From contig JAQBPO010000022.1 of the NCBI GenBank assembly GCA_028287465.1, forward strand, positions 1 through 64,000: DNA of 64,000 nucleotides, in the 5' to 3' direction. The translations under genes were made by a program, and so were the position numbers. The notes under the pieces were generated by a model, which worked only from the letters and a program-made list of their open reading frames with translations, ran no database searches and was not told the DNA's origin. How positions within the stretch are numbered: the stretch's first letter is position 1; the number at the start of each line of letters is the position of its first letter. The stretch is from Fibrobacterota bacterium. Its GTDB lineage: Bacteria; Fibrobacterota; Fibrobacteria; UBA11236. Shown here one piece after another: positions 44,572-53,435 of the stretch.

Positions 44572-45069
44572 ATGAGCGCAGTCAAGACCGCTCCCGCCCG
44601 CGATAGCAATAGCCGTGAAGACCTGCCCGGCAGCCGCCTGGCCTGGTTCACGCGCCTGTACCTGCCGACCATCGCCAAGGGCATGATGGTCTCCATGCGG
44701 CATTTCTTCAAGAAGCCCGTGACCATCCAGTACCCGGAGCAGAAGGCGAAGATCAGCGAACGGTTCCGCGGGGAACATCGCCTGACCAAGGACGCGGAAG
44801 GGAACATGAAGTGCGTTGCATGCTACATGTGCGCCACCGCATGCCCGGCGCAATGCATCCATATCGAGGCCCAGGCCGCGCCGCCGGAATGGGAGAACCG
44901 GGACAAGATCCCCAAGGTGTTCGAGATCGATATGCTGAAGTGCATCTACTGCGGCTATTGCGTGGAGGCCTGCCCCAAGGAGGCCATCGAAATGACGAAC
45001 AAGATCCCGCAGGTGTATGACAACCGGCAGGCTTTCATTTACGGGATTGATAAGCTGCTTAATAATTGA
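44572..45069 (+). CDS. nuoI: NADH-quinone oxidoreductase subunit I
   Basis: 165 aa. Two ferredoxin-type [4Fe-4S] motifs, CVACYMCATACPAQCI and CIYCGYCVEACPKEAI. The N-terminal 40 residues are polar. Last gene of the first nuo cluster; nuoJ is found 7.7 kb downstream. Confidence 0.96.
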   Translation: MSAVKTAPARDSNSREDLPGSRLAWFTRLYLPTIAKGMMVSMRHFFKKPVTIQYPEQKAKISERFRGEHRLTKDAEGNMKCVACYMCATACPAQCIHIEAQAAPPEWENRDKIPKVFEIDMLKCIYCGYCVEACPKEAIEMTNKIPQVYDNRQAFIYGIDKLLNN

Positions 45070-45210
45070 GTTACCCGACTCCTCGTCATCCCCTGATTTT
45101 GGGTTTTTGGGTCCGTAAGTGTAACCGGCGGTTTGTCGGGATATCTTACAAGGCCATCGGGGTGATAGGGTTTGATAGGCTCTTTTCCTCAGTAAGTGGC
45201 GGGTCGGAAG

Positions 45211-45225
45211 TGGCATGTCAATTGC
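45211..45225 (+). promoter_or_regulatory. Sigma-54 (-24/-12) promoter
   Basis: TGGCATG-TCAA-TTGC fits the RpoN consensus TGGCACG-N4-TTGC at all but one position, with the invariant GG (45212-45213) and GC (45224-45225) correctly spaced. It lies immediately before a PEP-CTERM gene; such genes are known to be RpoN-dependent in other bacteria. Transcription would start at about 45237. Confidence 0.65.
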
Positions 45226-45238
45226 GTTATAGGATTGT

Positions 45239-45679
45239 ATGACCAATAATAAACTCGTGAAAAACGCTCTGATACTAGCCGCCCTTGTGACCGGCGCGGC
45301 CCAAGCCACTCCCCTTTCAAATGAAGGTTGCGGCAACGCGCCCGGGGGCAAAGGCGCTTCCGGCCCGGCCAATCCCTGCACCTTGTATCTTTGGGCGAAT
45401 TCCGGACCCGTGGTCTCCACCGTGCATTCCATGAACACCTTGCTGGATGGCGGCCCCGGGGTGAACGGTCAGCAGTTCCAATTCGGCTTTTTCAACCCCG
45501 GACCCTTTACCGGCGACACCTGGTTCGACACGCAAAGCGGTGCGGCCGGTCACTTCGATAATGGCCGTAATAACGATCACCAGCCGCTTCCGGAAGCCGT
45601 GCCCGAACCGGGCTCATTCGTATTGATGGGACTCGGCCTGATGGGTCTCGCCGCGGGCCTCCGCCGCCGCAAGGCATAG
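45239..45679 (+). CDS. PEP-CTERM sorting-domain protein
   Basis: 146 aa. Signal peptide (LVKNALILAALVTGAAQA), a small Gly/Asn-rich mature part with two Cys, and a textbook PEP-CTERM tail at residues 121-146: VPEPGSFVLMGLGLMGLAAG then RRRKA. Exosortase should cut at the PEP motif and release the protein to the surface or matrix. No exosortase gene is in this window. ATG 45239 is nearly at the predicted transcription start; GTG 45257 is an alternative start. Confidence 0.88.
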   Translation: MTNNKLVKNALILAALVTGAAQATPLSNEGCGNAPGGKGASGPANPCTLYLWANSGPVVSTVHSMNTLLDGGPGVNGQQFQFGFFNPGPFTGDTWFDTQSGAAGHFDNGRNNDHQPLPEAVPEPGSFVLMGLGLMGLAAGLRRRKA

Positions 45680-45739
45680 TCGGGAAAGGTTCCGGTCTTT
45701 TACGGGGAGGGTTTCCCCGGTTTCATCCGCATAGGGGGC

Positions 45740-45786
45740 GCACCGGGCATTTCGCCAGGACCGCCTTCCCGGTGCGGATTTTTTTT
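45740..45786 (+). terminator. Rho-independent terminator
   Basis: GCACCGGG (45740-45747) and CCCGGTGC (45768-45775) form an 8 bp stem, followed by GGA and eight T (45779-45786). It ends the PEP-CTERM transcript on the + strand. Confidence 0.7.
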
Positions 45787-45882
45787 GCTCCCCGCCGACG
45801 GACCATTCGATGGTGGATGCGGACCGTGCGCTCGCAGAACCCACGCTCAAACTTCCAATCAAGGACGACCCGCAGGCAGGCC

Positions 45883-47214
45883 CTACAGGTTCGGGAGGCT
45901 GTCGTTGATAAGGACGTATTTCTCTTCGACCATGCGGCTATGGTTCATCCCGGGCACGGTGGCCACGGCCTTCAGGGTGGCCGAAGCGCGCAGGACGAAA
46001 GGGTGCGTATAGAGCGCGCTCGAGTCCGCCGGGGCGGTTCCGTCCAGGGTATAACGGATGAGGGAGCCCTGGGATCGGGCGGTCAGGGAGATGACGAGGG
46101 AGTCCCGGAAGGATTGGCCCGGAGGCGAGGCGACGGGTTGGGCCGGGACCAGCTCGTAATTGTTCGCGGTGATGTCGCTGTGGTCCCGTCCTTTCATGTA
46201 GGCGACGGCCTTGACGGTATAGCTGGCGCCGCGCAATCGCACAGGTCCCGTATAGAGCGTGGAGTTGTTGTCCGGGGTCGATCCGTCCAGGCTGTAATAG
46301 ATGACGGCGCCGGGCTCGCCGGTGAGGGTCACGGCCACGGAGTCGGTGAAGGCGTATACGCCGGGCGGATTCGCGCCAGGGGCCTTCACGCGCTGGATGG
46401 GATCGGGCAGGGGGATGGAATCGATGCGGGCGCCCGGTTTCAGGGGTCCGGTCCAGAGGCCTCCCAGGGAGTCCGCCATCTCGTGGACGATGCCGTTCGC
46501 CGAGACGCAGCGCAGGGGGAATCTGCCTTCGGGCAGATGGTTGAACTCGAAACTGTTGTCCCTTTTCACCTGGGCATAGAACAGGGTGCCGGGAACGAAA
46601 AGCGCCAGGGGCCTGCCCGCTGGAGTGGTCGTGTCCACCGTTCCGGTATACCCCCGCTCCCGGCTTATCCGCAAGGTCAGGGATCCGCCGCCGGGGCCCG
46701 CGTCCGGCATGCTGAATCCACCCGTGGCCGAGTCCGCATGGATGCCGGTCAGGACCGCCACCTTGTCGGAATCCACGAACAGGATGACATTGAAATCGGG
46801 GATGGGAGCGGCCAAGGAGGCTGAGGCCGAGGCGGTCTTGCGCAATTCCAGGTAGGCGTTCTTATGCAAGGCCAATTCCAGATCGGCCCTGGATATGGTA
46901 TAGGTCTTTTCGCCGTCCAGATAGAAGGCGTCGATGCGGGGCCGCAGGCTCAGCTCCAAAGTGGTCCGCGCGAAGGTGCCGTCATCGGGATCGCGATTGT
47001 AGAATTCCGGATTGGAGTTCTGGACGAAGAGTTGCAGGGATCCCGTGACGGCCACGCTTTGCCCGCCATCGCGGAAATCAAGGGTGAGCCCGGGATTGCC
47101 CGCTTCGGTGGTGGTGCCGCCCAGGCAACCGGAAAGGCTCGAAAGAAAGGCGGCCGAGACAGCGAAGAGGACCGCCAGCAAAGGCTTGGCCCGGCGTACT
47201 CCGTCGGTTCTCAT
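45883..47214 (-). CDS. Lipoprotein with two chitobiase/HEX C-terminal-type domains
   Basis: 443 aa. Signal peptide with lipobox SLSGC. The N-terminal half is a beta-rich domain (DFRDGGQSVAVTGSLQLFV). The C-terminal half has two CHB_HEX_C/fn3-like repeats: VIYYSLDGSTPDNNSTLYTG with TVKAVAYMKGRDHS, and LIRYTLDGTAPADSSALYTH with TLKAVATVPGMNHS. Such domains occur in extracellular carbohydrate-linked proteins. It overlaps the upstream TIGR02147 gene by 4 bp (ATGA), so the two form an operon. Confidence 0.82.
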   Translation of the reverse strand: MRTDGVRRAKPLLAVLFAVSAAFLSSLSGCLGGTTTEAGNPGLTLDFRDGGQSVAVTGSLQLFVQNSNPEFYNRDPDDGTFARTTLELSLRPRIDAFYLDGEKTYTISRADLELALHKNAYLELRKTASASASLAAPIPDFNVILFVDSDKVAVLTGIHADSATGGFSMPDAGPGGGSLTLRISRERGYTGTVDTTTPAGRPLALFVPGTLFYAQVKRDNSFEFNHLPEGRFPLRCVSANGIVHEMADSLGGLWTGPLKPGARIDSIPLPDPIQRVKAPGANPPGVYAFTDSVAVTLTGEPGAVIYYSLDGSTPDNNSTLYTGPVRLRGASYTVKAVAYMKGRDHSDITANNYELVPAQPVASPPGQSFRDSLVISLTARSQGSLIRYTLDGTAPADSSALYTHPFVLRASATLKAVATVPGMNHSRMVEEKYVLINDSLPNL

Positions 47215-48044
47215 GGAATGCGGGCCCCCGGGAACAGCTGGATATTGAGGACGTTCACCTGGTTCATGTCCTCGTCGCGGTCCACGATCTCGCGCACTTC
47301 CTGCAGGAAGGCGTCAATCCTCTGTTTGACGGACGCGAAGCCCTTATCGGAAACCGAAAAGGCCAGCACGTTGAATTGCCGCCTCTCTGGCCCGAACCGA
47401 TCGAGGGCGATGGAGGCCAGGCGCAGGAATTCCCGGTGGTATTCCTTGGCCACCTGGCCCTGGAAGACCTTTCCCGTGACCAGGTGCCGCTCGGTGACGC
47501 CGTAACCGTTCGCGGTCTTCTTGATCAGGCCCATATCCAAAAGCAATTCCAGGGACTCCTGCACTTCAGGGGCGGATAGGTTTTCGGCCAGATGCTTGGC
47601 GATCCGCGCCGGCGAGGCATCCGCCTTATCCAACCCCAGGTAGTTATAAATAACACTATGATGCCATTTCGCGAAAAAGGCGTACTGTTTTTCCAGGAGG
47701 ATCTTGGCCTGGGAGCCCCGGTATTTGGACAGATGGGAGAAGAAGTAATTCTTCTCATCGATGGTCTTGGCCTGATTGAATTGGACCAGGAAGTCGAAAT
47801 ATTCCGCCCCGGCCCCTTCCAGGCGCAAGGCCTTGATGAATTGGAGGCGCTGGCGCTGGGTCAGGTTACGGGTGCCCTTGAGCAGATTGGTCATGTAGCT
47901 GGTGCTGGAAATCCCCAAGGCGGGATTGCTGGCGAAGGTGCGCATGGAATAGCCGGGCTGGATTTCCTTGCGATACCGGAACCAATCCTTCAGGAAACTG
48001 CGGAAATCCAGGTAATCGGGCACGGAGGGGGGGGCAGGCTTCAT
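47211..48044 (-). CDS. TIGR02147-family protein (putative regulator)
   Basis: 277 aa. Pattern of the family: DYLDFRSFLKDWFRYRKE, the HTH-like FASNPALGISSTSYMTNLLK, RNLTQRQRLQFIKALRLEG, EYFDFLVQFNQAKTIDEKN, then FAKWHHSVIYNYLGL and GYGVTERHLVTG. This family is strongly expanded in Fibrobacter. Its structure suggests a DNA-binding HTH with a C-terminal sensory part. Co-transcribed with the overlapping lipoprotein, as is the second copy at 49063. Role as a regulator is inferred. Confidence 0.85.
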   Translation of the reverse strand: MKPAPPSVPDYLDFRSFLKDWFRYRKEIQPGYSMRTFASNPALGISSTSYMTNLLKGTRNLTQRQRLQFIKALRLEGAGAEYFDFLVQFNQAKTIDEKNYFFSHLSKYRGSQAKILLEKQYAFFAKWHHSVIYNYLGLDKADASPARIAKHLAENLSAPEVQESLELLLDMGLIKKTANGYGVTERHLVTGKVFQGQVAKEYHREFLRLASIALDRFGPERRQFNVLAFSVSDKGFASVKQRIDAFLQEVREIVDRDEDMNQVNVLNIQLFPGARIP

Positions 48045-48066
48045 CGCTCTCTTAAGATAGCATGCG

Positions 48067-48267
48067 GCCCTCGCCAGGATCCGGGAATTCCAGGGAGGGC
48101 GCTCTCAAATAGAGAGCAGAATCGCAGAGCAGGCCATGCCCGCCCGTTGCGGGGCGGATTACCTTATGCACATACCCGCGTGACGGAACATGTCCCGCGC
48201 ATCGGAGTTGTCCACCGATGCGCCATAGCCCCGGCCGAGCCCTTCGGTCGGGGCTCCTCTTTTTATC
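48067..48267 (+). ncRNA. Candidate structured small RNA with terminator
   Basis: In the 256 bp gap between two - strand genes lie five consecutive stem-loops: GCCCTC/GAGGGC (48067-48100), GCTCTC/GAGAGC (48101-48117), CCGCCC/GGGCGG (48140-48157), GCGCATCGG/CCGATGCGC (48197-48223, 9 bp), and a strong 12 bp stem AGCCCCGGCCGA/TCGGTCGGGGCT (48227-48255). A T-rich tail follows at 48258-48264. The T-run is on the + strand, where no protein gene ends, so an independent + strand RNA is the simplest reading. No known family is recognised. Confidence 0.35.
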
Positions 48268-48300
48268 CGGAAATGGATTGGGTGCGTCCGCGTCCGCCGG

Positions 48301-48816
48301 TCAGGAAGCGGAGTATTCCAGGTAGTCCGGATCCCGGGGCGGGGCCAGAAGATCGTCCAGGTCCTGGAAAAGGGACCAGATGCCGGGCTCGTCCGTATAG
48401 CATTTGCCCGCGCGCAGCGGCAGGCTGCGGTAGAACCTGCCCTCAGCGGTTTCCACCATGTAGAAACGCATGTCCTTGCCGAAGCAGGTTCCGAAGGCGG
48501 GATGCCGCGGAAGATCCCCAAGCACTCCATGCAAGGCCCTGCGGCGCTGGCCGTTGAGGAGGATGGACTTCCTGCTTTCGATCGGCGCGGAGTCGGGATG
48601 GTAGCTGGTTTCGGTGTAGTGGAGGGAATCGCCCACGATGCGGAGGTGGACCTTGGATCCGTTCCGGGTATCGCCCTTCATGAAGGACATTTCAACCGGG
48701 CCCTGGGCGACCGCGGCGGAATCGGCGGGGACCGGAACGACCGCGAAAGCGGGAGCCAAGGCCAGTAGGCAAAAGGAAATGAAAGTGCGATTGGCGTAGC
48801 GCGAGTTCCACCGCAT
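48301..48816 (-). CDS. Hypothetical secreted protein
   Basis: 171 aa from ATG 48816. Signal peptide (FISFCLLALAPAFAVVP). The mature domain has VEMSFMKGDTRNGSKVHLRI, LHYTETSYHP and a Cys pair (FGTCFGKD and AGKCYTDE) likely bonded. C-terminus LFQDLDDLLAPPRDPDYLEY. A longer frame extending to 49056 runs through repeat DNA and is rejected. No family is recognised. Confidence 0.65.
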   Translation of the reverse strand: MRWNSRYANRTFISFCLLALAPAFAVVPVPADSAAVAQGPVEMSFMKGDTRNGSKVHLRIVGDSLHYTETSYHPDSAPIESRKSILLNGQRRRALHGVLGDLPRHPAFGTCFGKDMRFYMVETAEGRFYRSLPLRAGKCYTDEPGIWSLFQDLDDLLAPPRDPDYLEYSAS

Positions 48817-48883
48817 GGGAAAAGGATAGTTTTCAATTTCAGTCAGGTAAAGGAATTTAAAGTCCGTTTGCGTTCCGCTATTC

Positions 48884-48977
48884 GTCCGGATACGCTCCGC
48901 TCTCCGCCCGGAATCACTTTGATTCCGTCCGGATGCGCTTCGCTCTCCGCCCGGAAGCGCTTCGCTCTCCGGCCGGG
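48884..48977. repeat. Tandem 30 bp repeats, partly palindromic
   Basis: GTCCGGATACGCTCCGCTCT begins copy one (48884-48913). Copy two at 48927-48956 begins GTCCGGATGCGCTTCGCTCT. A third truncated copy runs 48957-48977 with GCGCTTCGCTCTCCGGCCGG. They lie in the divergent gap between the secreted protein gene and the second TIGR02147 gene. They could be REP-type elements or regulator binding sites. Confidence 0.55.
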
Positions 48978-49062
48978 AGCGTGTTTTTCCCCCGCCTACC
49001 CCCTCAGCCCGCCGGCTTAGGGTATACTTTAAGGGACCCCACCGGTTGCGGGCCAACCTTAT

Positions 49063-49902
49063 ATGCCAGATTTATTCGCCTACATAGACTACCGCAAATT
49101 CCTCAAGGATTATTACGAGGAACAGAAGGCGAAGGACGCCAAGTTCTCCCACCGTTATTTCACCATGAAGGTGGGGTTCAGCTCTTCCGGCTACTTCTCC
49201 GACGTGCTCTCGGGGAAGAAGAACCTGTCGGGCGCGTTCATGCTGAAGTTCGCCAAAGCGCTGAAGCTGTCGAAGGAGGAAGAGGAGTACTTCCTGAACC
49301 TGGTCAGTTTCAATCAGGCGAAGACCCTGGAGGAAAAGAACCGGTACTACGAAAAGATGATGACGAGCGGCAAGGTCAAGGTGGACGTGCTGGAGGCGGA
49401 CAAGTACGAGTACTTCAGCAAATGGCATTATGCCGCGGTCCGCGAGATCCTGCACTATGCCGCCTGCAAGGACGACTACAAGGCCCTTGCCAAGAGCCTG
49501 GATCCTCCCATCACTCCCAAGGATGCGCGCAAGGCGATCGACCTGCTGGCGGCGATGGGATTGATCGCGCGCGATGACCAAGGCTTCTGGCGTCCCGCCT
49601 CGGCGAACCTGACCACGGGCGGGAATTTCAACGGCCTCAACGTCGCGAATTTCCACCGCAACACCCTCGAGCTGGCCATCCGCGCCCTGGATGCTTTTCC
49701 CGGGGATCAAAAAGGTTTTTCGACTTTGACGCTCCCCCTTACGGGGGACAAAATCCGCAAGGCCAAGCTGGCGATCAAGAATCTCCGGATGTACCTTTTG
49801 GCCCTCGCGGAAAACGGCACCAAGGCGGACCGCGTCTATCAATTCAACTTCCAGTTGTTTCCCGTAACCCGGATCGAAAAGGCGGAGGGGGATGGAGCTT
49901 AG
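49063..49902 (+). CDS. TIGR02147-family protein (putative regulator), second copy
   Basis: 279 aa. Starts PDLFAYIDYRKFLKDYYEEQ, followed by FTMKVGFSSSGYFSDVLSG, KKNLSGAFMLKFAKALKLSK, EEYFLNLVSFNQAKTLEEKN, FSKWHYAAVREILHY and NLTTGGNFNGLNVANFHRNT. Closely parallel to the copy at 47211 but diverged, so an old paralogue. It is directly followed by a lipoprotein gene, repeating the regulator-lipoprotein module. ATG 49063 has no clear ribosome-binding site. Confidence 0.87.
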   Translation: MPDLFAYIDYRKFLKDYYEEQKAKDAKFSHRYFTMKVGFSSSGYFSDVLSGKKNLSGAFMLKFAKALKLSKEEEEYFLNLVSFNQAKTLEEKNRYYEKMMTSGKVKVDVLEADKYEYFSKWHYAAVREILHYAACKDDYKALAKSLDPPITPKDARKAIDLLAAMGLIARDDQGFWRPASANLTTGGNFNGLNVANFHRNTLELAIRALDAFPGDQKGFSTLTLPLTGDKIRKAKLAIKNLRMYLLALAENGTKADRVYQFNFQLFPVTRIEKAEGDGA

Positions 49903-49915
49903 GGGATCGGACCCC

Positions 49916-51220
49916 ATGAAAACGGTATTGCGCGGCGGGCTGGTCCTGGCCGCGTTTTCCGCGTTCCTGGTTTCGGCCATCGGATGCATGGGATCCGTAG
50001 CGGGCACGTTCTGCGGTACCGAGGTCCAGGATCCGTATGAAGTGGCCGGGTGCGTGGAACAGGAGAACGGCGAGCCCGCAATCGGGGTCAGGGTGGTCGC
50101 GATCGCTTCCGGGCCTTTGACCAAGGTTTCCGGATCAGGGGGCCTGGAGGCGTCCGGTTCGGACACGGCCATCACGGATCGGGAAGGGTTCTTCCTGTTC
50201 AAATCCCTGCCCCATGGGAACTACAATCTCATCTATGAGGACGTATCCAGGGACAGTTCGGGAAAGCTGAGGGCGGCCCTCAGGTCCAATGTGAACACTT
50301 TGATTGAACCGCAATTCGTTCAGAAGGTAAAGCTGCAGCGCTCCAATTTCCTGTTCGTGGTCGTCAAGGATAAGACGGCGGACCAGCTTCTGGGCGATGT
50401 CGAATGCCATTTGGAAGGTACCCCCTACTACGCGACGACGAGTCCTAATGGGGTGGCCGTTTTCGAGGTGCCCCAGGGTTCCTATAATATCCTTTGCTAC
50501 AAGGTCAATTACACGCCGGTGCAATTCCAAACCGAGTTCTACAAGGATGTAACCAAGAAAGATGGAAACAAGACGGTCGACATCCAGCTTTCGCAGGGGG
50601 AAGACGTCAAAATCCCCAGCCCCATCAATCTGATCGTGACCCAGGATCCGGCGACGTCCAACGTCAATCTCTCGTGGGGCAAGCCGGTTTCCACCCAGGC
50701 CCTGAAATACAGGGTGAAGCGGAACGTGACGGAAATGCCGGCCCAATCCAAGTCCTTCGACGTCGGATACGATCTCTTCTATTTCGACGCGGTCTTCGGC
50801 GGCGAACCGGATACGGTTACGGCAAAGACCCTGGTCTATTCGGTGGCATGCGTGCGCGGGGACGGGATTACCGGGCTTTATGCCACTAAGCAATTTACCG
50901 CCGTGCGGGGTCCCTCGGTGACCTTGGCAATCCTGGATTCCGCCGGTACCGGCTTCCGGACGGGCGATACGGCCAGGATCGTGGCGACGTATTCGAGCCG
51001 GTTTTTCCGGAACGATACCCTGACCTGGAAGGTCCGGAACGCGCCGGACAGCGTACGCATCCTCCGGACGATTCCGTTACCCGAACGGGCCGGTTCGGAT
51101 ACCCTCTTATACCCGTGCGCCGCCAGGGGTGAACCGGAACTCGAATTGAGGGTGAAGGACGAAACCGGAATCACTTCGGTTTCCCGTCTGGTTCTGCATA
51201 TCCAGGATGCGCCTCCCTGA
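49916..51220 (+). CDS. Large lipoprotein with Cna-B/carboxypeptidase-regulatory-like domains
   Basis: 434 aa from ATG 49916; ATG 49892, overlapping the upstream gene, is possible. Lipobox SAIGC. Two beta-sandwich regions look like Cna-B/CarboxypepD_reg folds: GEPAIGVRVVAIASG with TDREGFFLFKSLPHGNYNL, and GDVECHLEGTPYYATTSPNG with VFEVPQGSYNILCY. An fn3-like domain (INLIVTQDPATSNVNLSWGK) and a C-terminal Ig-like part follow. A surface-exposed role is likely. It lies 13 bp after the TIGR02147 gene and is probably controlled with it. Confidence 0.78.
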   Translation: MKTVLRGGLVLAAFSAFLVSAIGCMGSVAGTFCGTEVQDPYEVAGCVEQENGEPAIGVRVVAIASGPLTKVSGSGGLEASGSDTAITDREGFFLFKSLPHGNYNLIYEDVSRDSSGKLRAALRSNVNTLIEPQFVQKVKLQRSNFLFVVVKDKTADQLLGDVECHLEGTPYYATTSPNGVAVFEVPQGSYNILCYKVNYTPVQFQTEFYKDVTKKDGNKTVDIQLSQGEDVKIPSPINLIVTQDPATSNVNLSWGKPVSTQALKYRVKRNVTEMPAQSKSFDVGYDLFYFDAVFGGEPDTVTAKTLVYSVACVRGDGITGLYATKQFTAVRGPSVTLAILDSAGTGFRTGDTARIVATYSSRFFRNDTLTWKVRNAPDSVRILRTIPLPERAGSDTLLYPCAARGEPELELRVKDETGITSVSRLVLHIQDAPP

Positions 51221-51545
51221 CCTCCGGCGACCCGTAATCCTCCGATTGCCCAGGCCGCCCCTCCAAAATCTGACCGCGAGCGGGACTCCAGTCCCACATT
51301 CGGGAGGCCTTGCTTCGACCGGGCCTCTATTCCGGTTCAAAAAAGGCATTTGCCCCTTACCTCCTGGCTTCCTACAACCTGGTCTTTTTTTTGCTCAATA
51401 AATAGTCGGCGATTTCCGCCTCTAAGACGTCTTACCAGGCGAGGGCGTATGGCGGCGACCGGCCCGGGTCCCGATCGCTCTGGAAAGAAGAGCGGGAACC
51501 CGTGACCTGGGACAGTAATGGACCGAGCGAAGGAATAGATTTCCA
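51221..51545 (+). other. Intergenic region with hairpins, leader of sensor kinase
   Basis: No gene is seen in this 325 bp gap. It holds GGGACTCCAGTCCC (51282-51295), an eight-T run near 51384-51391, the palindrome AAGACGTCTT (51424-51433) and a composite hairpin GGGT...CGCTCT/AGAGCG...ACCC (51466-51501). The last is about 45 bp before the kinase start and may be a regulated leader. Confidence 0.35.
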
Positions 51546-52577
51546 ATGATGACTATGGAAAAGACGATGACCGGCCTGACCTACATCGCCCTCGGCGCCT
51601 TCGCGGCCTATCTCGGATTCTGGTGGACCGAGGCGGGTCGCCAGACCCATGTTCTCCCGGTCCTGTTCTCCCTGGGAATGGCCGCGACCGGCCTGGCCAT
51701 GGTTTCGCGATCCGGTCGGCGCCAAGCGCGTCCGGAATCCGATGGCGGGCGCGGCCGTTCGACCGGAGGCCGCTTGGAGGCGGGTTCCCCCATGGAGGCC
51801 GTCAACAGGCGTCTGGAGCCTGCCCCCTTGGCGGACCGCGGCGGAGACGCGGCCCTGCTGGGCCACGAAATGAAGAATTACCTGTGCACGCTGAAGGGCA
51901 ATGCCCGGCTTCTCCGCCAACGGGTGAAAGGCGGCGATAGCGACATCATCGATCGCATCGATCGGGTGGTGGAAAAGCTGGAGTCATTTACGCAAACCAT
52001 GGCCTCGCCGGCCAACGCCGTCGCTACGGGCCGGCTTTGGCACCTGCGCCTCGCCGATGCCGCCAAAGCCTGCGTCAAGACCCACTTCCATACGGGGGCC
52101 CGCGGCTTCCGGTGGGATTGCCTCCCGGATGCCCCGGCGGTTCTGGGGGATCCCGATCGGATGGAACAGGTCTTTCTCAACCTGTATGCCAACGCCCTGG
52201 AGGCCGGCGCGACGAAGGTCACTACCTCGGTGCGCTCGGAGGGCGGTCGCATCCAAGTGCGCATCGAAGACGATGGCCGCGGGTGCGCCAGGGAGGATCT
52301 GGAACGGATATTCGAACCCTTCTTCACCACCAAGCAAGGGCCGGCCCGCCGCGGCCTTGGGATGTTCATCGTCCAGTCCATCGTCGAAAACCACGGCGGC
52401 CGCATCCAGGTGAAGACCAAGAACGGATCCGGCGCGGGACAGCACGGCCTCGTTTTCGCCCTAGATTTTCCTTCCGCTTTACCGGCGACCGGCGAAATCA
52501 GGGGTTTGCGGCCGGTTCCCCTCACGGAGGGGAAATCCTCCCCCAGGTGGCTCTTGGCGCTTCCGGAACCCATCTGA
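51546..52577 (+). CDS. Membrane-anchored sensor histidine kinase
   Basis: 343 aa. Two N-terminal helices (TYIALGAFAAYLGFWW and HVLPVLFSLGMAATGLAM), an Arg/Gly linker, then the phosphoacceptor His107 in LLGHEMKNYLCTLKGNARLL. HATPase: LNLYANALEAGATKVTTSVR (N box), IEDDGRGCAREDLERIFEPF and RRGLGMFIVQSIVENHGG. No receiver or PAS domain. The His motif resembles kinases that pair with RpoN-dependent response regulators, but no regulator gene is adjacent. ATG 51546 is the first of two ATGs in frame. Confidence 0.85.
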   Translation: MMTMEKTMTGLTYIALGAFAAYLGFWWTEAGRQTHVLPVLFSLGMAATGLAMVSRSGRRQARPESDGGRGRSTGGRLEAGSPMEAVNRRLEPAPLADRGGDAALLGHEMKNYLCTLKGNARLLRQRVKGGDSDIIDRIDRVVEKLESFTQTMASPANAVATGRLWHLRLADAAKACVKTHFHTGARGFRWDCLPDAPAVLGDPDRMEQVFLNLYANALEAGATKVTTSVRSEGGRIQVRIEDDGRGCAREDLERIFEPFFTTKQGPARRGLGMFIVQSIVENHGGRIQVKTKNGSGAGQHGLVFALDFPSALPATGEIRGLRPVPLTEGKSSPRWLLALPEPI

Positions 52578-52684
52578 AGTCCGACCTCGCGGCGGCCCCG
52601 GCTCCCATGGGAATTACCCGATTCCGTCCAGCCTGAAGGTCGCCGCGAACCGGGCTCCCTCTATCCGCCCGTAGGCCCTCCGCC

Positions 52685-52713
52685 TTTATTTTCCCGGGGA
52701 TTCTTTCTAAATT
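52685..52713 (+). promoter_or_regulatory. Candidate promoter for nuoJ-N
   Basis: TTTATT (52685-52690), 17 bp spacer, TAAATT (52708-52713), 80 bp before nuoJ in the 216 bp gap. A GGGAAC/GTTCCC hairpin (52728-52745) follows in the leader. This would let the second nuo cluster be expressed independently. Confidence 0.35.
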
Positions 52714-52793
52714 CCAGCCGGAATTGAGGGAACTTCGAGGTTCCCTTCCTGTTTTCCAGCCCCAACCCCATAATCCTTCAAGGTCAGGGACAA

Positions 52794-53435
52794 GTGCCAG
52801 TTTCACCCGTCGTCGAGATCACCTTCGCCCTTTCCGCCGCGCTTATCCTGCTCAGCTCCATCGCCGTGGTCCTGATCAAGAATCCGGTGCGGGCGACCTT
52901 GATGCTCATCCTTTCCTTCCTGCCCACCTCCCTGGTGTACATCCTGCTTCAGGCGTCCTTCGTCGGGATCCTGCAGATCCTGGTGTATGCCGGAGCCATC
53001 ATGATGCTCTTCACCTTCGTGATCATGATGATCAACCCGTCCCCGAAAGAAGGCGAGTCCCCCGCGGGCGGTTCCGAAAACGCCTTTTCCGGCCTGCGCG
53101 GCGGCCTCATCGGCCTGGCCGTGGTGGGCCTTGCGGGCGCCTTGGTCCTCCCTCAGGTCTATCACGCGGCCTCCCAGGTGTCCGTCCAGCCGGTCAGCAA
53201 GCCCGGCTTCGGGGAACTCTCCTCCATTGCCGCCCTGCTCTTCGAAGATCCATCCAACAATCCCCTTACCGTGTCCTTCGAGCTGATCTCCTTCCTCATC
53301 CTGGTGGGCGTCATCGCGGCCCTGAACTTCTCGCGGCGCAAGGGCAGCGCGCCGGCCAAGGAAGATTCCATCACCACCCGTCCCACCGAGGCCCTGCCTT
53401 TGCTCAAGCGCGAGCCCGCCCTGGACAGGAAATAA
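52794..53435 (+). CDS. nuoJ: NADH-quinone oxidoreductase subunit J
   Basis: 213 aa from GTG 52794 with AGGGA upstream. Five helices, ND6-type: FALSAALILLSSIAVVLIKN, VYILLQASFVGILQILVYAG and AIMMLFTFVIMM. First gene of the second nuo cluster. Confidence 0.94.
   Translation: MPVSPVVEITFALSAALILLSSIAVVLIKNPVRATLMLILSFLPTSLVYILLQASFVGILQILVYAGAIMMLFTFVIMMINPSPKEGESPAGGSENAFSGLRGGLIGLAVVGLAGALVLPQVYHAASQVSVQPVSKPGFGELSSIAALLFEDPSNNPLTVSFELISFLILVGVIAALNFSRRKGSAPAKEDSITTRPTEALPLLKREPALDRK

Follow-up and report, generated by a model that had tools for sequence, protein, structure and literature searches.

Why should two members of one paralogous regulator family, in the same stretch of DNA, each be followed directly by a gene for a lipoprotein? 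The question is raised by 64,000 nucleotides from a Fibrobacterota bacterium (GenBank assembly GCA_028287465.1, contig JAQBPO010000022.1, positions 1 to 64,000; this whole stretch is called the window below), in which two TIGR02147 genes, those of regulators 1 and 2, stand upstream of the genes of lipoproteins 1 and 2, respectively. A first-pass annotation had read the repeated pairing as a possible signalling pair, with TIGR02147 proteins regulating or sensing through the adjacent surface lipoprotein. Both regulators are clear members of the family (TIGR02147/PF14394, DUF4423; ‘Fsuc_second’ in NCBIfam, of type paralog), which is multi-copy in Fibrobacterota—the TIGR02147 model, with a curated cut-off of 50 bits, gives 223.5 bits for regulator 1 (model positions 3–269 of 272) and 278.2 bits for regulator 2 (positions 1–271), in both cases near its full length, and the DUF4423 scores are 102.4 and 119 bits. 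The window pairs are members of about 50 two-gene units in the source genome. Judging from sequence, we consider it somewhat probable that each pair is an autoregulated two-gene operon, with a cytoplasmic helix-turn-helix (HTH) regulator in control of a single variable envelope protein.

We identified 53 TIGR02147 matches in the source genome and compared the neighbours of the 50 scoreable ones with those of 565 control genes from the stretches around them, using our own pattern-based gene caller and lipobox patterns. The downstream gene was on the same strand for all 50 TIGR02147 genes, as opposed to 362/565 controls (p=1.4e-9), and it followed at a gap of 10 bp or less for 33 of them (90/565 controls; p=1e-13). 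A downstream lipoprotein with a strict lipobox was found for 26/50 TIGR02147 genes vs 20/565 controls (p=6e-20), and further partners show a relaxed lipobox or an alternative start; the repeated pairing is thus real and far beyond chance. Upstream neighbours followed no pattern, being on the same strand in just 25/51 cases. Since 48/51 TIGR02147 genes have a free upstream spacer of at least 100 bp in addition to the tight downstream gene, the arrangement indicates a bicistronic operon with its own promoter. The pairs also appear to duplicate as units—divergence among regulators correlates with divergence among lipoproteins (Mantel r=0.36, p=0.001), and the nearest regulator and the nearest lipoprotein concur in 17/50 pairs.

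Most partners share a glycine-rich tag at the mature N-terminus, a few residues past the lipid cysteine, on bodies that are otherwise dissimilar and contain CarboxypepD_reg, Fn3_assoc/CHB_HEX_C_1, Laminin_G plus DUF2341, or no known domain. The consensus is about [VL]-A-G-G-x-x-[TS]-[ED]-[TVI]-[GT]-N; about half of the tags have the form with N, and another group reads GGGSETV, with the N missing. The distance from the cysteine is variable, spanning approximately 3–15 residues in the motif pattern, with the tag mostly 7–14 residues away. In the window, the sequence after the cysteine is CLGGTTTEAGNP in lipoprotein 1 and CMGSVAGTFCGTEVQDP in lipoprotein 2, so that the two proteins, described at first as different in sequence and domain, do differ in their bodies and are not wholly unlike, both carrying a form of the shared tag. 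We asked whether the conserved element might be a DNA site instead of a protein motif and rejected this, since the motif codons track genome GC, which means that the protein is what is conserved.

Simple regular expressions for the motif were leaky (21/52 and 27/52 partners vs 4/515 and 13/515 other genes), and we therefore relied on a profile built from 26 partner N-termini of the source genome, with a threshold of E<1e-6; the motif patterns had been adjusted to the data ahead of the final test. In the source genome, 36 of its 39 matches lie directly behind a TIGR02147 gene. The corresponding figures in eight other Fibrobacterota genomes are 10/11 (G106), 7/8 (G167), 19/22 (G031), 20/20 (G017), 11/12 (G004), 5/5 (G026), 1/1 (G160), and 1/1 (G163), for a total of 110/119 matches (92%) across the nine. 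Seven Fibrobacterota genomes without TIGR02147 gave zero matches at this threshold, and matches at weaker E-values in these genomes mostly covered the CarboxypepD-like part alone. Per-genome counts of regulators and tagged lipoproteins rise together (rho=0.96, 17 genomes). The stretches sampled from the source genome encode 41 lipoproteins besides the partners; one of these, C7:62274, is clearly tagged. This gene (C7:62274–62531, locus L086) encodes a tagged paralogue of the C10:46421 partner and has no adjacent TIGR02147 gene; tag-like lipoproteins without such a neighbour also occur at C13:161765 and C73:212858 (L082).

Orthologous loci show how differently the parts of a unit change. In three other genomes (L211–L213), the modules stand in the same order as in the window, with nuoJ and nuoK on the right, and identity to the window is 81–91% for the regulators and 79–82% for nuoJ vs 48–51% for lipoprotein 1 and 30–33% for lipoprotein 2. 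The tag is spared from this divergence: orthologues of lipoprotein 1 carry GTSTGADNP at the tag site, and the share of invariant columns is 67% in the tag vs 39% elsewhere for lipoprotein 1 and 86% vs 15% for the four orthologues of lipoprotein 2. Four further orthologous sets showed lipoprotein identity below regulator identity each time, so that over six sets of close orthologues the regulators range from 81 to 92% and the lipoproteins from 30 to 74%, with the tag nearly unchanged. This is the picture expected of a fast-changing protein, presumably exposed at the surface, in which a single attachment or recognition element is constrained.

TIGR02147 is present in 157/168 Fibrobacterota genomes searched, and the neighbour tabulation that the first-pass annotation had proposed as a check shows an exported-protein partner to be strongly enriched in the source genome and in genomes of several other families, so that the refuting result named there, a lack of enrichment, did not arise. 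The same pairing and tag were seen in other Fibrobacterota families, as far as G167, the most distant of those sampled, and at 80 named loci. Beyond this phylum, TIGR02147 is present in 59/60 genomes sampled from the class of Bdellovibrio sp. qaytius, in up to 45 copies. Bdellovibrionota partners often start, past the signal peptide and after a lipid cysteine, with GTxTGNP; other tags (GGVTVGNG, GGEIGNA, xVGNGGD) follow an apparent signal-peptidase-I site, and some of these partners may thus be non-lipidated. A Bdellovibrionota tag pattern, drawn up after inspection of this same first set, matched 22/39 partners vs 5/196 other genes. Held fixed and applied to 29 loci fetched later, it matched 14/29; another four came close when judged by eye, and the majority of the remaining loci lack an exported partner altogether. 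The pair also occurs on a plasmid of Bdellovibrio sp. HAGR004 (tag AKVIGNGGN) and, in the one Polyangiaceae genome sampled from the Myxococcota, as a serpin with the tag CAGTGTGNP behind a TIGR02147 gene. The enrichment in the source genome and in other Fibrobacterota families, together with the pairing in Bdellovibrionota, supports a functional pair.

Other TIGR02147 genes depart from this arrangement or come from records of uncertain label. In the class of Bdellovibrio sp. qaytius, a subgroup without an exported same-strand partner (L415–L421) recurs in many genomes, with matches to model positions 6–271 and often with open frames of at least 380 aa; such regulators may work by themselves or in trans. 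Records titled Sedimentisphaerales (L223) and Nitrospira sp. (L240) also contain Fibrobacterota-type TIGR02147 genes, and these bins may be mislabelled or contaminated.

What, then, might the regulators do? Their putative layout consists of an N-terminal Cro/C1-type HTH, a central winged-helix-like part, and a conserved C-terminus. DUF4423 was found in all 80 regulator relatives scanned; HTH_3 matched 12 of the 80, weakly (best 4.9e-5) and with the window regulators not among them, and winged-helix families matched some others. A signal peptide or a hydrophobic or membrane segment was predicted in 0/53 regulators. This means that they cannot touch a mature outer-membrane lipoprotein, and any contact between regulator and partner would have to involve the precursor before export or pass through a third component. 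Sensing through the adjacent surface lipoprotein, one half of the earlier proposal, is not supported, and the more economical half is control of the partner operon. Given the HTH_3 and winged-helix matches and the lack of a membrane segment, a DNA-binding, one-component autoregulator is the most economical reading of these proteins.

Candidate binding sites for such an autoregulator are present in both window promoters (Table 1). In module 1, four orthologous loci keep the arms and flanks of candidate operator 1 without change in the midst of an otherwise poorly conserved spacer; the invariant block, CTGCTCTCTAnTTGAGAGC, holds the perfect GCTCTC-N5-GAGAGC repeat and is accompanied by the −10-like TGCTATCTTA. 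No match of this type is expected by chance within the window. Candidate operator 2 has the same arm and spacer geometry, and in module 2 the sequence GGTATACTTT comes after its GCTCTC-N5-GGGAGC repeat. The form GCTCTC-N5-GRGAGC has eight sites in the 5.8 Mb genome, two of which are the window promoters. The other six are intergenic (C7:5777, C12:34983, C27:11116, C78:19341, C4:8136, and C81:82299), that at C78:19341 being 142 bp upstream of a lipoprotein gene; they are possible further targets or hairpins. A common operator for all modules was rejected, as the repeat is strong only in the window promoters and the footprints of other modules differ. The operators, if real, would be specific to each module or to a small group.

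Table 1. Coordinates of the two modules and their candidate control elements (window positions)
Feature	Position	Strand	Details
Regulator 1 (TIGR02147/DUF4423)	47211..48044	-	277 aa, predicted cytoplasmic
Lipoprotein 1	45883..47214	-	443 aa, lipid Cys30, LSGC lipobox
Tag of lipoprotein 1, GGTTTEAGNP (residues 32-41)	47092..47121	-	
-10-like element, module 1, TGCTATCTTAAG	48051..48062	-	TGCTAnnTTA kept in four orthologous loci
Candidate operator 1, GCTCTC-TATTT-GAGAGC	48101..48117	-	Perfect inverted repeat, 73 bp upstream of regulator 1 start
Candidate operator 2, GCTCTC-CGGCC-GGGAGC	48964..48980	+	In conserved block GAAGCGCTTCGCTCTCYGNCCGGGAGCG, four orthologous loci
-10-like element, module 2, GGGTATACTTTA	49020..49031	+	GGnTATACTT kept in four orthologous loci
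Regulator 2 (TIGR02147/DUF4423)	49063..49902	+	279 aa
Lipoprotein 2	49892..51220	+	442 aa, lipid Cys32, AIGC lipobox, CarboxypepD_reg domain
Tag of lipoprotein 2, GTEVQDP (residues 42-48)	50015..50035	+	

In the autoregulated operon that we propose, a cytoplasmic one-component regulator, with its Cro/C1-type HTH and winged-helix-like DUF4423 region, would act at its own promoter by binding an inverted repeat there, setting the expression of the single exported protein encoded directly behind it, while co-transcription and translational coupling via ATGA-type overlaps would keep both products in proportion. The exported partner would be an envelope protein that diverges fast, in Fibrobacterota a lipoprotein whose body often includes beta-sandwich or lectin-like parts. 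With a regulator apiece, and probably an operator apiece, some 50 units would amount to a repertoire of separately switched surface proteins. Behind the signal peptide, the tag would form the constant part of the partner, tying it to the system. What reads the tag is the most conjectural step. That the tag stays so tightly linked to the regulator, on unrelated bodies and whether or not the partner appears to be lipidated, suggests a reader belonging to the system; a regulator contacting the precursor would be the simplest such reader, and an envelope docking partner fits nearly as well. In the sub-model that we prefer, the unexported precursor would bind its own regulator via the tag, allowing export state or amount to be read and fed back. 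That the tag is a ligand of the paired cytoplasmic regulator, with the unexported precursor reporting export or demand, we advance tentatively and with more doubt than belief; it would imply a self-monitoring type of operon for surface proteins, used tens of times within a genome and not confined to a single phylum.

Several observations weigh against this scheme. For any single sequence, the HTH and winged-helix assignments are weak (HTH_3 in only 12/80), and a profile search of the PDB stayed below significance, with HTH-like (C.BclI, HigA) and winged-helix-like (SSO2273) candidates. Nine tagged lipoproteins lack a neighbouring regulator, and an exported partner is missing behind some regulators, above all those of the Bdellovibrionota subgroup. 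A terminator-like hairpin with its T run is another way to read candidate operator 2; the repeat was not found upstream of other regulators, and its six further intergenic sites have no clear link to modules. Finally, because the tag is nearly identical in about 50 paralogues, it would offer little ligand specificity, and this near-constancy is the main argument against a pair-specific ligand.

Three other explanations were considered, of which one shares the operon and differs in the role of the tag. An ordinary autoregulator might sense a small molecule or stress, with the tag acting as an extracytoplasmic sorting or docking sequence for surface placement or for a common envelope partner; we regard this as possible, if on the doubtful side. 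The tag does lie at the mature N-terminus, as does the Bacteroidetes lipoprotein export signal (LES; PMC5080379), the partner bodies resemble surface-binding parts (CarboxypepD_reg, Laminin_G, Fn3_assoc, serpin), and the one clear orphan, C7:62274, retains its tag without an adjacent regulator. A general signal, however, would be expected on many exported proteins, whereas the profile matches are concentrated behind TIGR02147 genes in the proportion given above, and the other lipoproteins of the source genome are almost never tagged. Sorting restricted to lipoproteins is further opposed by those Bdellovibrionota partners that have a signal-peptidase-I-type sequence and no lipobox. The likeness to the LES, also a short conserved stretch past the lipid cysteine in a class of lipoproteins, is one of position only: the LES, C-X-K-(D/E)2-X, is position critical (PMC5080379), whereas the tag varies in its distance from the cysteine, is glycine-rich with TE[TV]xN, is confined to regulator-paired genes, and occurs in Bdellovibrionota on proteins without a lipobox, and the window lipoproteins are without K-(D/E)2 at +3 to +5 after the cysteine.

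In the second account, the pairs all arose by duplication of a single ancestral operon, and the tag merely forms the opening strand, or cap, of a beta sandwich of CarboxypepD_reg type that the partners have in common; tag and regulator would then be linked by common descent only. Sequence similarity connects 42/52 partners of the source genome and the pairs duplicate together, as this would predict, but the tag is present without that domain on lipoprotein 1, on the Polyangiaceae serpin, and on Bdellovibrionota proteins of 130–160 aa, and within orthologous sets it is far more conserved than the adjoining fold; we therefore judge this account unlikely. A peptide cut from the exported partner, re-imported, and bound by the cytoplasmic regulator, as in RRNPP-type signalling, appears highly improbable. 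The layout is alike, in that RRNPP systems (Rgg, PlcR, PrgX, ComR, and others) place the gene of a cytoplasmic HTH regulator, here within the same 250–500 aa range, beside that of an exported product (PMC10075063). Yet RRNPP propeptides are secreted and 10–100 aa long, whereas the window partners are large lipoproteins of 443 and 442 aa and partners in general are lipoproteins or secreted proteins of 130–920 aa; the 80 regulators scanned gave no consistent TPR family match (one spurious single match); the hosts are diderm; and the conserved stretch is shared near-identically across paralogues instead of being pair-specific, the opposite of a specific pheromone.

Within the window, both lipoproteins have a lipobox with its cysteine, a charged n-region, and a hydrophobic h-region (pattern-based prediction), and lipoprotein 1 ends in two Fn3_assoc/CHB_HEX_C_1 repeats. 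Of the spacings reported at first, the ATGA overlap of module 1 holds, with the start of lipoprotein 1 lying within the regulator 1 stop codon (47214–47211). The 13 bp gap of module 2 (49902–49916) probably does not: lipoprotein 2 most likely starts at the ATG at 49892, not 49916, because a strong Shine-Dalgarno sequence (ggcggaggggg) precedes the former and 3/3 orthologous loci use the equivalent codon, while ATG 49916 is not conserved. The two genes would therefore overlap by 11 bp. The modules lie inside a nuo (NADH dehydrogenase) operon, in a block at 45070–52793 between a nuoI-like gene ending at 45069 and a nuoJ-like gene starting at 52794. Three other genes share this block with the modules. 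On the nuoI side of module 1, a short PEP-CTERM protein is encoded (45239–45679, +); the space separating the divergent modules holds the gene of a 171-aa exported protein that belongs to no known family (48301–48816, −); and past lipoprotein 2, ahead of nuoJ, comes a histidine-kinase-like protein with a membrane anchor (51546–52577, +). The 171-aa protein shares 61–71% identity with its counterparts in the three relatives (L211–L213) and is conserved better than either lipoprotein; the kinase-like protein shares 54–59%. An anti-phage defence system was rejected, as PADLOC models gave no relevant match to the modules, only a chance-level DUF499 on the Fn3_assoc repeats.

TIGR02145 (FISUMP, Fibrobacter major paralogous domain) is a large paralogous lipoprotein family of the same phylum. 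Its NCBIfam model matched neither the window lipoproteins nor ten other partners. The membrane proteome includes one TIGR02145 protein (PMC4619616), and several lipoproteins that contain carboxypeptidase regulatory-like domains figure in the envelope proteomics of Fibrobacter (PMC6851124); these are possibly partners of the kind described here. A search of the open literature found no description of the pairing, the tag, the partner, or a TIGR02147 function; the name TIGR02147 occurs in none of the papers searched, and DUF4423 in one, for a protein up-regulated in Bdellovibrio (PMC12546842). The TIGR02147 model itself describes the regulator only, with the partner gene and the tag outside it.

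TIGR02147, often present in tens of copies, has so far been a paralogous family without a function, and its link to a class of tagged partners makes that function directly testable—the operon controlled by each regulator, the role of the tag, and the possible one-by-one switching of the fast-changing surface proteins of cellulose degraders and bacterial predators. The link also supplies a simple annotation rule for hundreds of exported proteins that are currently hypothetical. With about 50 units in the source genome and recurrence in at least two phyla, the pairing is probably a widespread, undescribed way to control cell-surface proteins.

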